Under the pieces are notes generated by a model. It was not told where the DNA came from and made no database searches. It was given only the letters and a program-made list of their open reading frames with translations. Of a DNA stretch of 21,098 nucleotides, positions 3,501 through 13,550 are shown piece after piece (the first letter of the stretch is position 1; each line of letters starts with the position of its first letter). The translations under genes and the position numbers were made by a program. The DNA is taken from positions 1-21,098 of IMG/VR virus record IMGVR_UViG_3300025168_000825. One strand, 5' to 3'. The DNA is from a virus.

Positions 3501-4271
3501 ATGAAATTAACAGAACAACAAATAGCAGAAAACTGGGAACAGTTAACGGGTAAAATATCAACAACCTTTTCAGGAGAAAGATTAGAAAATTTAACAAACC
3601 TATATGACACTCTAAAGGATAGAATGATGTTTGCTCCAGCATCTGGAATAGAACATTTTCACAATTGTTTTATTGGTGGATATGTCGACCATGTATTGAG
3701 AGTAATGAAATGCTCTGCAACACTATATAAAACGTGGAAAGATATGGGAGCCGATATGAGTGGCTATACAATAGAAGAATTAGCTTTTTCTGCGCTTAAT
3801 CACGACCTAGGAAAAGTTGGAGATATTGAAAACGATTATTATGTACCAAATCCAAGTGAATGGCATAGAAAGAATCAAGGCAAGGTTTATAATGTCAATC
3901 CAAATATTCAAAACATGACAGTACCACACCGTAGCTTATGGCTATTGCAAGAATTTAATGTAAAGTATACTCAAAATGAGATGATTGCAATAATGACTCA
4001 TGATGGATTATATGATGACGGAAATGCTGCATATCTTAAAACATGGGATAAAGATAGAAAACTTAGAAATCACATGCCATTATTACTACATCAAGCAGAC
4101 CATATGGCATCAATGATTGAATTTGAAATGTGGAATAGAGGAGGAATAACGGCATCAGCACCGCTTGTTAAAAACTCAGCTCCAACATTTAAGAAAAAAG
4201 CTCCTAAAATTTCTACAGCAAATGATAATGCACAAGACTTATTTAAGGACTTATTTGGAGATACTAAGTGA
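3501..4271 (+). CDS. HD-domain metal-dependent phosphohydrolase
   Basis: The 256-aa product carries the HD-superfamily metal ligands in order: H52/H54 and H64 (HFHNCFIGGYVDH), H101-D102 (NHDLGKVGD), H167 (MTHDG) and D200/H201 (LHQADHMAS). The GGYVDH...HDLGK arrangement resembles the HD domain of the YhaM/CbfA 3'-5' exoribonucleases, although the OB-fold of YhaM is absent. Substrates of the superfamily include nucleotides, cyclic nucleotides and RNA, so the substrate here is unknown. The C-terminal 35 residues (KKKAPK, then an acidic end) look flexible. ATG 3501 follows the clpP stop by two bases, with AGGA at 3492-3495 as a possible ribosome binding site; the frame is open further upstream but only inside clpP. 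The stop overlaps the next GTG (GTGA). Confidence 0.82.
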   Translation: MKLTEQQIAENWEQLTGKISTTFSGERLENLTNLYDTLKDRMMFAPASGIEHFHNCFIGGYVDHVLRVMKCSATLYKTWKDMGADMSGYTIEELAFSALNHDLGKVGDIENDYYVPNPSEWHRKNQGKVYNVNPNIQNMTVPHRSLWLLQEFNVKYTQNEMIAIMTHDGLYDDGNAAYLKTWDKDRKLRNHMPLLLHQADHMASMIEFEMWNRGGITASAPLVKNSAPTFKKKAPKISTANDNAQDLFKDLFGDTK

Positions 4272-4528
4272 TAATAACAATTGTTATATTGTCACTATTG
4301 TGTATTTTTCTTGGATATTCTACCTTTAATATGTTAAAAAAAGTAGAACTCTATGAAGAAACTGTAGACGAAACGGATGAATTATTGTTGTCTACTAGAA
4401 AAGAATTACAACAAGTTTTGGATGGAATTCGTAAAATTGACCATAGAAACATTTTTGAAAGTGATGATGAGGTTGGTCAAACATTCAAACAAATATTAAA
4501 ATTAATTGAAAGCTTGGAGAAATTGTAA
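4268..4528 (+). CDS. Single-pass membrane protein with coiled coil, 86 aa
   Basis: An N-terminal membrane helix (about residues 2-21, IITIVILSLLCIFLGYST) is followed by a charged helical stretch with heptad character and a conserved-looking ESDDEVGQTF motif near residue 64. The GTG start overlaps the HD gene stop as GTGA, and the stop overlaps the sigma gene ATG as TAATG, so it is translationally coupled on both sides. I recall similar small proteins beside sigma-factor genes in T4-like cyanophages, but cannot verify it. The topology would also suit an inner-membrane spanin, yet no outer-membrane spanin partner is next to it and the DDEVG motif argues against a fast-evolving lysis protein. 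Confidence 0.75.
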   Translation: MIITIVILSLLCIFLGYSTFNMLKKVELYEETVDETDELLLSTRKELQQVLDGIRKIDHRNIFESDDEVGQTFKQILKLIESLEKL

Positions 4529-5313: not shown

Positions 5314-5401
5314 ATGAAATATTTAGTATATTTAATTTTGAACACGGTCAATAGTGGCCACAAAACGTTACTAGCATAACAATTAAAAGAGGAGAAAATT
5401 T
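5314..5401 (+). promoter_or_regulatory. Leader of the outer-membrane protein gene
   Basis: This gap separates the sigma operon from the envelope cassette. It contains an AT-rich stretch (AAATATTTAGTATATTTAAT) that could hold a promoter, including TAATTTTG, a match to the Bacteroidetes -7 box TAnnTTTG but without a clear -33 TTTG. GTCAAT (5347-5352) is followed directly by AGTGGC (5353-5358). A strong ribosome binding site, AAGAGGAGAAA (5387-5397), ends 4 bases before the ATG. The GTCAAT, AGTGGC and ribosome-binding-site blocks recur in the leader at 5851-5883. Confidence 0.4.
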
Positions 5402-5836
5402 ATGAGAAATTTATTTTTAACATTAACATTAGCTTGCGCAACATTGTTTGCAGGAGCTCAAAACTTTATGGTTATCACAACCTATAATGCACCAGAAGAT
5501 GGAGCAGATTTCGAGCTTTCAAGCTTAACTGACAATATGGGTATCGGATATGTACTAAACGATACTTGGACTGTTGGTCTAATCGCTGCCGGTGAAGATT
5601 CAGTAGGAGACAAAAACTATGATGTATTCGGTCGTTACAATCACAACGCGAATATGTTTGTTTCTGTTCAAGCACCAACTGAAGAAATGATGGACAACTT
5701 AACAATTGGTTTAGGTTATTCATTTGTAGTATGGAAAACTCTAGCAATAGAGCCAAATTATACAATGGGTCTTAAAGAAGACACAAACGGAGATAGAGAA
5801 GGTACGTTCAACCTAGGGTTGGCTTACCGTTTCTAA
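5402..5836 (+). CDS. Small outer-membrane beta-barrel protein
   Basis: The 144-aa precursor starts with a clear signal peptide (MRNLFLTLTLACATLFAGA) with likely cleavage at A19|Q20; AQ at the cleavage site is common in Bacteroidetes. The mature 125 residues alternate polar and apolar residues in about eight strands (for example NLTIGLGYSFVV at 99-110), with acidic loops such as EDTNGDREG. It ends FNLGLAYRF, with a terminal aromatic residue as in outer-membrane proteins recognised by the BAM complex. Size and strand count suit an OmpX-sized eight-strand barrel. It should sit in the host outer membrane during infection. Receptor masking, altered permeability or lysis support are possible roles. 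A strong AAGAGGAG site suggests high expression. It is not a usual T4-like core gene. Confidence 0.75.
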   Translation: MRNLFLTLTLACATLFAGAQNFMVITTYNAPEDGADFELSSLTDNMGIGYVLNDTWTVGLIAAGEDSVGDKNYDVFGRYNHNANMFVSVQAPTEEMMDNLTIGLGYSFVVWKTLAIEPNYTMGLKEDTNGDREGTFNLGLAYRF

Positions 5837-5850
5837 GTAATTAACAATTA

Positions 5851-5883
5851 GTCAATGCTAGTGGCAAATAACAAGAGGAGAAA
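5851..5883 (+). promoter_or_regulatory. Leader of the 74-aa membrane protein, similar to the upstream leader
   Basis: GTCAAT (5851-5856), AGTGGC (5860-5865) and AAGAGGAGAAA (5873-5883) repeat, in the same order, blocks found before the outer-membrane protein gene. The main differences are a 3-base spacer between the first two blocks and a shorter distance to the ribosome binding site. GGAG lies 8 bases before the ATG. A shared regulator site, RNA structure or duplication would explain the similarity. No terminator separates the two genes. Confidence 0.4.
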
Positions 5884-5888
5884 TCAAA

Positions 5889-6113
5889 ATGGAAAATGTA
5901 ATTAAAATGATTGCAAGCTTTTTTGGCGGATTAACAACAATTCTTATGGCTGTATTACCAGTAACGATCTTATGGTTCGTTGTAACAGGTGGTTCAGTAT
6001 TTGGAATGGATGTAATTGCAAATTTAACAGCTTTAGTTGATGGATTTGGACAAGGTGGATTTACTGGTTTAGTAGTTCTACTAATTGTAGCATCATTCTT
6101 TGTTAAGAAGTAA
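5889..6113 (+). CDS. Two-helix small membrane protein, holin-like
   Basis: The 74-aa product has two predicted membrane helices, about residues 10-33 and 55-72. They are joined by a Gly-rich, weakly acidic loop (VDGFGQGGFTG), and the protein ends in a basic tail (FFVKK). Length and topology suit a class II holin, which makes holes in the inner membrane at lysis. However, no endolysin lies beside it, and any small pore or envelope protein would look alike. A very strong ribosome binding site (AGAGGAG) and a terminator 21 bases after the stop imply high, insulated expression. It shares leader sequence with the outer-membrane protein gene, so the two may act together on the host envelope. Confidence 0.65.
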   Translation: MENVIKMIASFFGGLTTILMAVLPVTILWFVVTGGSVFGMDVIANLTALVDGFGQGGFTGLVVLLIVASFFVKK

Positions 6114-6134
6114 TTAGTTTTACTTGTATAGAGG

Positions 6135-6174
6135 TTGCCCAGGTGCTTATTAAAGTGCTTGGGCAATTTTTATT
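6135..6174 (+). terminator. Rho-independent terminator
   Basis: TTGCCCAGGTGCTT (6135-6148) pairs with AAGTGCTTGGGCAA (6153-6166). The stem is 14 bp including three G-U pairs, with an ATTA loop, followed by TTTTTATTT. It is the strongest terminator in the window and separates the envelope cassette from the tail block. Confidence 0.92.
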
Positions 6175-6187
6175 TATAAGCTCGGAT

Positions 6188-12257: not shown

Positions 12258-13550
12258 ATGGCAAAACCAAGATATAGACGTCAATCAGTTGTAAAGTCGG
12301 TACAAGAAAAGTCTCTTGAATCTAGAAGTGATTACGTCGGAAGCAGAGACGCAACAATAGTTAAGCCAGATAATGGAGCAGTTTCAATTGCCACAGTACA
12401 AGATGACTATTATCCTTGGGATGCAGGAGCACATATTATTGCTGAAAACGTTCAGGAATTCCAGATAAATACAGAATTAGATTATTTAGAAACAGCGGCT
12501 GATAAAACCCATAGAGATCCTAATGGAAATATTGTTTCACAATTAAATAGTGATGCTATAGGTCAAGATTTTGTTATACTTCCACAAAGATATGTTTTAG
12601 AAAGAGACCAATACATAGAAGTAATAGATACCTCTATAACTGAACTTTTGCCAAATGTTGTTTATGGACCAACTGGTCCTCCAATATTACGATCGAATCC
12701 TAATTCTGGAGAAACAACTGGTATTATTATTTTTCCGTCACTAGGAACAGTTGATGGTAAAATATCTGATGGCTATTCAATTTTTGATGATCCAGGACTA
12801 TCAGCAACAGTTTTTCAATTTCCTGGAAACCACTGTAGAACAATAGTTGCAGATGCATATAATTACCTTGCCGAAGATGATATTGAAATTGAAGACGGCC
12901 TAACATATGAATGGATATTTAATTCAGATAATCCAGCAAAACATGGACTAGAAACTAGAAAAAAAATTAGTAATAAGGTTGTTTCTAGAACAAAAAAATT
13001 ATCATTGATAAATTCAACAATTTTCGAAACAGGCTATTATACCTGTAGAATAAAAAATGAACGTGGAACAATTGAAACACCAGCAATATATATTTTATGT
13101 AAAGGTGGATTAATAATTGAAAGAGACCAAATACTTAATCCTGAAACTAACGAATTTATAGGATTCGGAGCAGCAACTGGTGAAGTAATAGAAGACCAAC
13201 AACATAATCAATCTTATTCTATAACAGATGGTTGGTTTGATTTTGATGAAGAAAATAATGAATGGTTTAGAACTGCATGGGACACTTTGCAAGAAGAATG
13301 GTATGTTAGAAATAATTATCGTGGTTTTAGTGATTGGAGAGTTCCAAAATATGGACCAGAGCCAAAATCTAACGATGTATCGGATGAGCGTGTAGTTAAT
13401 CCAACAAGAACAAGTGCAGTTTCAAGAGTTCCTGAACAGCCAGTTCAACAACGAAAAAGTCAAGTAACTGTTCAACCACAACAGCAAGTTGTAAGAACAA
13501 CCCTTCCTTCAAATAGGTCAGGTAGAAACTCAAGAATACAGGAATCATAA
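12258..13550 (+). CDS. Virion protein with Ig-like domain and disordered basic ends
   Basis: The 430-aa product starts with a short basic segment (AKPRYRRQ). Residues about 190-282 look like an immunoglobulin-like domain: C193 in the B-strand position, W219 in LTYEWIF, and the hallmark FETGYYTCRIKNERGT with C263. A W/D/E-rich segment follows (WFDFDEENNEWFRTAWDTLQ, then EEWYVRNNYRGFSDWRVPKY). The last 55 residues are disordered, rich in Gln, Arg and Ser (VTVQPQQQVVR). Ig-like domains on phage virions often sit on exposed surfaces and can weakly bind host or mucus glycans. This gene lies between the DNRLRE protein and the giant baseplate protein, one base and a TAATG overlap apart. The function is inferred to be tail-surface. 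Confidence 0.65.
   Translation: MAKPRYRRQSVVKSVQEKSLESRSDYVGSRDATIVKPDNGAVSIATVQDDYYPWDAGAHIIAENVQEFQINTELDYLETAADKTHRDPNGNIVSQLNSDAIGQDFVILPQRYVLERDQYIEVIDTSITELLPNVVYGPTGPPILRSNPNSGETTGIIIFPSLGTVDGKISDGYSIFDDPGLSATVFQFPGNHCRTIVADAYNYLAEDDIEIEDGLTYEWIFNSDNPAKHGLETRKKISNKVVSRTKKLSLINSTIFETGYYTCRIKNERGTIETPAIYILCKGGLIIERDQILNPETNEFIGFGAATGEVIEDQQHNQSYSITDGWFDFDEENNEWFRTAWDTLQEEWYVRNNYRGFSDWRVPKYGPEPKSNDVSDERVVNPTRTSAVSRVPEQPVQQRKSQVTVQPQQQVVRTTLPSNRSGRNSRIQES

Follow-up and report, generated by a model that had tools for sequence, protein, structure and literature searches.

An outer-membrane barrel and a two-helix membrane protein form a cassette of predicted two-membrane design in uncultured marine phages

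The window, a 21-kb virus fragment, comprises 21,098 nt, and the two cassette genes and their terminator lie on its plus strand between 5402 and 6175. Two open reading frames were read at the places located in the earlier note. The one at 5402-5836 encodes a 144-aa protein, predicted to be an exported eight-strand outer-membrane beta-barrel (allele A) from its reading frame, an AlphaFold2 model, structural matches and weak Pfam matches. The other, at 5889-6113, encodes a 74-aa protein (TM), modelled as a two-helix inner-membrane protein with both ends predicted inside. Shine-Dalgarno (SD) sites with the motif AGAGGAG were read directly at 5388-5394 for the barrel gene and at 5874-5880 for the TM gene. 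Downstream, a stem at 6135-6166 followed by a T-tract makes up an intrinsic terminator (6135-6175; folding energy -29.5 kcal/mol, z -6.5), which was found by folding and was not picked up by a simple pattern scan. These results confirmed the two genes, the AGAGGAG sites and the strong 3' terminator described earlier. The unit had also been called insulated, with a sigma operon upstream. The insulation is shown at the 3' end, where the terminator lies; a pattern scan established no promoter upstream of the cassette, and the upstream gene matched Pfam Sigma70_r2 weakly (E 0.15). Upstream of this sigma-like gene, 4268-4528 encodes a protein of 86 aa that starts with a membrane segment and probably forms a coiled coil; its match to Rz spanins was very weak (E 0.14). 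A long gene at 13550 had distant matches in Flavobacterium phage immuto and Microcystis phage Mel-JY01.

A hairpin, GGTC-AATAGT-GGCC, was read upstream of the barrel gene at 5346-5359, and the TM gene has a weak counterpart, GTC-AATGCTAGT-GGC, at 5851-5865. This second hairpin is stronger in relatives, for example TGTCA-AATGCTAG-TGACA. AATAGT hairpins occurred in the leaders of both cassette genes with seven different stems. AATAGT with stems of at least 4 bp was found in 14 of 25 distinct cases in cassette leaders against 13 of 389 elsewhere (Fisher p 1.6e-12), a value that is overstated because the loci are related; the test also used the very loci on which the element had been noticed. The barrel leader of the window as a whole folded no better than shuffles (z 0.29), and neither did the hairpins of TM-gene leaders alone. 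A hairpin with a T-run stood 3' of the cassette in 58 of 60 cases in the window's neighbourhood, 19 of 19 in a head-gene neighbourhood, 11 of 20 in a third group and nearly all others. In the window's neighbourhood, an SD-like motif preceded 89% of the barrel and 97% of the TM genes, as against 0% in most others; the cassettes of other phages have A-rich leaders without SD sites. The cassette genes follow their own group in this respect, since SD sites were found for 40% of genes in the window group, 2% in the head group and 3% in immuto. The very strong ribosome binding sites claimed earlier are thus present at both window genes but are a trait of the lineage, not of the cassette. Across the cassette phages (groups C1-C11), SD usage was bimodal, with 40% and 23% in two groups and 0-5% in most others and in immuto. 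Two longer records of the SD-using group, G005 and G009, and the 297-kb record G002 encode ribosomal protein bS21. It has been reported that bS21 in Flavobacterium governs anti-SD access (PMC9976891), and a link between bS21 and SD usage in the cassette phages is possible.

The barrel protein has a signal peptide, MRNLFLTLTLACATLFAGA, before Q at the predicted cleavage site and ends in Phe. The signal peptide, with its ending of AGA before Q, is typical of Bacteroidota. The AlphaFold2 model (54 sequences; mean pLDDT 79.5, pTM 0.67) showed eight strands after the signal helix, at residues 22-29, 46-51, 56-65, 71-80, 85-91, 101-111, 114-126 and 132-143. The window barrel therefore has the eight-strand model, signal peptide and C-terminal aromatic residue by which small outer-membrane barrels are recognised. 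Its top structural matches by VIA-align were the OprF N-domain, Opa60, OmpA and NspA (Z 10.5-11.8). OprF came first (Z 11.8), but avidin-type barrels scored less than 1 Z behind, so the fold alone does not place the barrel. For this reason the outer-membrane assignment leans also on the signal peptide, the C-terminal signal and weak Pfam matches. The window barrel matched OMP_b-brl (PF13505) at E 0.021 with 15.4 bits, under the cut-off of 28.7; the best family member reached E 2e-6, and 41 of 54 members were at E<=0.1. From its sequence and model, the protein is predicted to leave the cytoplasm by the Sec route and to insert into the outer membrane.

The model of the TM protein had a modest pLDDT of 70.6, with helices at 2-32 and 41-72. 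Its charged residues are E2, K6, D41, D51, K73 and K74, with Asp in the loop only and Lys near both ends. TM is predicted to form a two-helix hairpin in the inner membrane with both ends inside. The structure predictions for the two proteins thus support, at the level of models, the proposal that the pair would place one protein in each host membrane. Searches of Pfam, PHROGs, NCBIfam and PADLOC gave no usable family for TM and weak matches only for the barrel, and a PDB sequence search with the cassette proteins gave no significant match. Exclusion and defence families did not match the cassette proteins either, except for one weak AbiEi match to the other barrel allele, which is probably due to chance. 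Rz/Rz1 spanins, which combine an inner-membrane anchor bearing a periplasm-spanning coiled coil with an outer-membrane lipoprotein, were considered and rejected: a short loop is all that TM would expose to the periplasm, and its partner is a barrel whose signal peptide lacks a lipobox Cys where cleavage is predicted.

We examined the pairing of the two genes by homology searches seeded with cassette members, taking the best 80 loci of each, so that more distant lone barrels could be missed. Among these matches there were 154 distinct barrels, of which 150 were paired with TM and 4 lay at contig ends. Each of the 150 distinct barrels, in uncultured viruses, whose contig leaves space for a neighbour was therefore paired among the matches listed, in many neighbourhoods and in both gene orders, which answers the concern that the genes might rarely co-occur. 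The corresponding 152 distinct TM genes comprised 137 paired, 11 alone with room and 4 at contig ends. In the first searches, both genes had been found at every locus with room, the exceptions being contig ends and one bacterial MAG; the wider TM search gave lone copies, and strict mutual pairing was rejected. The pair thus stands as a unit in that, among the matches listed, a barrel with room always has TM beside it, but the dependence is one-way. Every longer record examined had one barrel and one TM. We are highly confident of the cassette anatomy and pairing as described. The homologous pairs, conserved reading frames, dN/dS of about 0.2 and 150 distinct barrels indicate that the cassette is more than a chance arrangement.

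The lone TM genes mostly belong to a divergent subfamily (with FVSLSILAEVIFG) and occur in several neighbourhoods. L346, however, belongs to the window's neighbourhood and its TM gene is an ordinary one; 137 bases separate the sigma-like gene from TM, no barrel is present, and the arrangement looks like a barrel loss. When bacterial genomes were searched for the cassette, TM was found only in two related small-genome MAGs of the order Cytophagales, as tandem relatives in bacterial surroundings without a homologous barrel (L258 5001-5540; L269 2608-3152). From the lone TM genes, L346 among them, and these tandem copies, we infer that the core effector is TM, which would be the older of the two, and that the barrel joined it later as a dependent partner in the outer membrane. 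In L278, a lone TM gene lies upstream of a 59-aa gene, a membrane/coiled-coil gene and an HD gene; this order (L278 2951-4605) is apparently common to the window at 818-2018, with homology judged by eye. The contig L257, binned in an archaeal Nitrosopelagicus MAG, holds the cassette with phage-type neighbours and is probably a misbinned phage contig.

The 119 distinct cassettes were classified by common neighbour genes, a grouping that is approximate. The window's neighbourhood, with the sigma-like gene and a baseplate operon, held 61 of them. A head neighbourhood, in which a prohead protease (Peptidase_S77, E 4e-27 in L229) is followed by a putative scaffold and capsid, held 21, and a third, mixed group held 20. 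The remaining cassettes formed smaller groups near thioredoxin, ribonucleotide reductase, a ClpP-like gene (297-kb contig) and others. In total, the cassette was found in about 10 gene neighbourhoods, and the order was reversed, TM before barrel, in 10 of the 119. Judging from these sequences, the pair has moved as a unit between unrelated genome places. In one group, a gene close to the cassette encodes a 70-aa protein that ends in a membrane segment and belongs to no known family (L070 3747-3959); G009 and G002 have homologs elsewhere (48% identity). One gene of L203 (5121-6275) combines a peptidoglycan-binding domain with a C-terminal dual-specificity phosphatase-like match, which is unusual.

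In immuto, the genes before the cassette (42%), after it (44%) and next (32%) and an HD phosphohydrolase gene (38%) are in the same order as in the window, and about 34 bases stand at the place of the cassette. Neither cassette gene was found elsewhere in the immuto and Mel-JY01 genomes. The empty site and the lack of copies elsewhere in these two phages indicate that the cassette is accessory, and the site has the pattern of accessory cargo rather than of a structural or core gene. Nine queries from both families were run against 50,697 cultured phage records without a credible match; the only hit was insignificant (E 0.6, under a capsid gene). Together with the empty syntenic site, this agrees with the statement of the earlier note that the pair is not part of the T4 core set.

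The barrels fall into two types, or alleles, which are about 28% identical. In L006 and L039, the TM DNA and the downstream 120 bases are 100% identical but the barrel types differ, which places a breakpoint within the cassette. The barrel allele changes at least 13 times on the TM tree, a number that may be inflated because the protein is short. Median dN/dS was 0.18-0.24 for both genes, and these ratios indicate that both are under purifying selection. The predicted surface loops of the barrel were no more variable than its strands.

We conclude that the pair is an uncharacterised envelope cassette with a predicted two-membrane design. Its best-fitting purpose is envelope remodelling or superinfection exclusion, to which we assign a probability of about 0.4. 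The barrel and TM would remodel the envelope of the infected cell so that further phages are blocked. TM in the inner membrane might hinder DNA entry, in principle as T4 Imm does, and the barrel might occupy or alter the outer surface or join the TM effector to it. We prefer exclusion because of the accessory distribution, the mobility, the predicted placement in both membranes and precedent; exclusion proteins of the inner and outer membrane are known in T4 Imm and T5 Llp. Several points speak against it. The loops of the barrel give no hint of an arms race at the surface. Classical exclusion proteins are early products, whereas several cassette neighbourhoods are late-gene regions. Some phages keep TM on its own, so that whatever TM does can proceed without the barrel. 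More tentatively, the cassette may be a hitherto unrecognised trans-envelope phage system. A mobile TM, which some small-genome bacteria also have, would have gained a dedicated barrel with two interchangeable alleles, and the whole would pass as one piece between unrelated marine phages that initiate translation in different ways.

The main rival, a lysis module in which TM would act as a class-II-type holin and the barrel would weaken or tune the outer membrane at lysis, is unlikely. TM has a suitable size, two helices and a Lys-ended C-terminus, one lone TM relative matched a holin PHROG very weakly (E 0.042), an endolysin lies 0.9-1.7 kb off in two minor neighbourhoods, and some neighbouring genes weakly resemble Rz spanins (E 0.005-0.009). 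However, endolysin relatives were found near 3 of 119 cassettes only, on the opposite strand, and the three largest neighbourhoods (102 of 119 cassettes) had no relative nearby of the two query endolysins used, a search by which other types could be missed. When three endolysin families were searched in ten long records, matches were found in the 297-kb record only, where the lysozyme-family gene is about 8 kb from the cassette. The cassette is also absent from the related lytic phage immuto, and we know of no barrel that is part of a holin system. The genomic context thus links the cassette only weakly to lysis genes. It is rather improbable that the pair is permeability cargo of benefit to the host, preserving the envelope or changing uptake during infection with no role against phages. 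The purifying selection on loops and strands, the acidic loops and the TM relatives in bacterial genomes would fit such cargo, but eight-strand barrels usually have no open pore, and the two swapped alleles are not obviously accounted for.

That the two genes are merely inherited neighbours with no joint role is improbable: TM stands alone in 11 distinct genes with room, including L346, among the best 80 loci per search, but the pair was kept across about 10 neighbourhoods and through order reversal, and no barrel without TM was seen among the matches listed. A role of TM as a membrane-bound factor in head assembly or in the virion, to which the barrel would be only a passenger, is very improbable. 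In neighbourhood C2, TM does separate the prohead protease gene from that of the putative scaffold, as does the lone TM of L280 and L284. Most copies, however, are elsewhere (ribonucleotide reductase, thioredoxin, baseplate), phages without TM still build heads, and head assembly offers no role for an exported barrel.

Although many uncultured marine phages carry the pair, no homolog was found in cultured phage records and no usable family in curated collections. The one-way dependence and the natural barrel-less copy provide a ready design for probing phage action on both Gram-negative membranes, and the same design could tell exclusion from lysis control.

We compared the cassette with known systems; no description of a barrel and TM pair was found in the literature. 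T4 Imm likewise has about 80 aa and two predicted membrane segments and comes from a T4-type phage, but it shows no sequence similarity to TM (BLASTP E 15) and is an early T4 gene without an outer-membrane partner. Class II holins share with TM the two helices, the length of 65-95 aa and the predicted N-in/C-in topology. They differ in that TM has no credible holin family match in PHROGs or Pfam and the endolysin linkage of the cassette is sporadic. Phages can encode outer-membrane barrels. Lambda Lom (Ail/OmpX type) and the barrels that have been predicted for marine phages are, like the window gene, phage genes for a small outer-membrane barrel, and BFVD contains many such proteins, including one from an uncultured virus that is 37% identical to the barrel. 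Such phage-encoded barrels are not known to travel with a dedicated inner-membrane protein. The OmpA/OprF/OmpX-type barrels (PF13505) have in common with the window barrel the predicted eight strands, the signal peptide and the C-terminal Phe, but the window barrel falls below the Pfam cut-off, is phage-borne and is paired with an inner-membrane partner.
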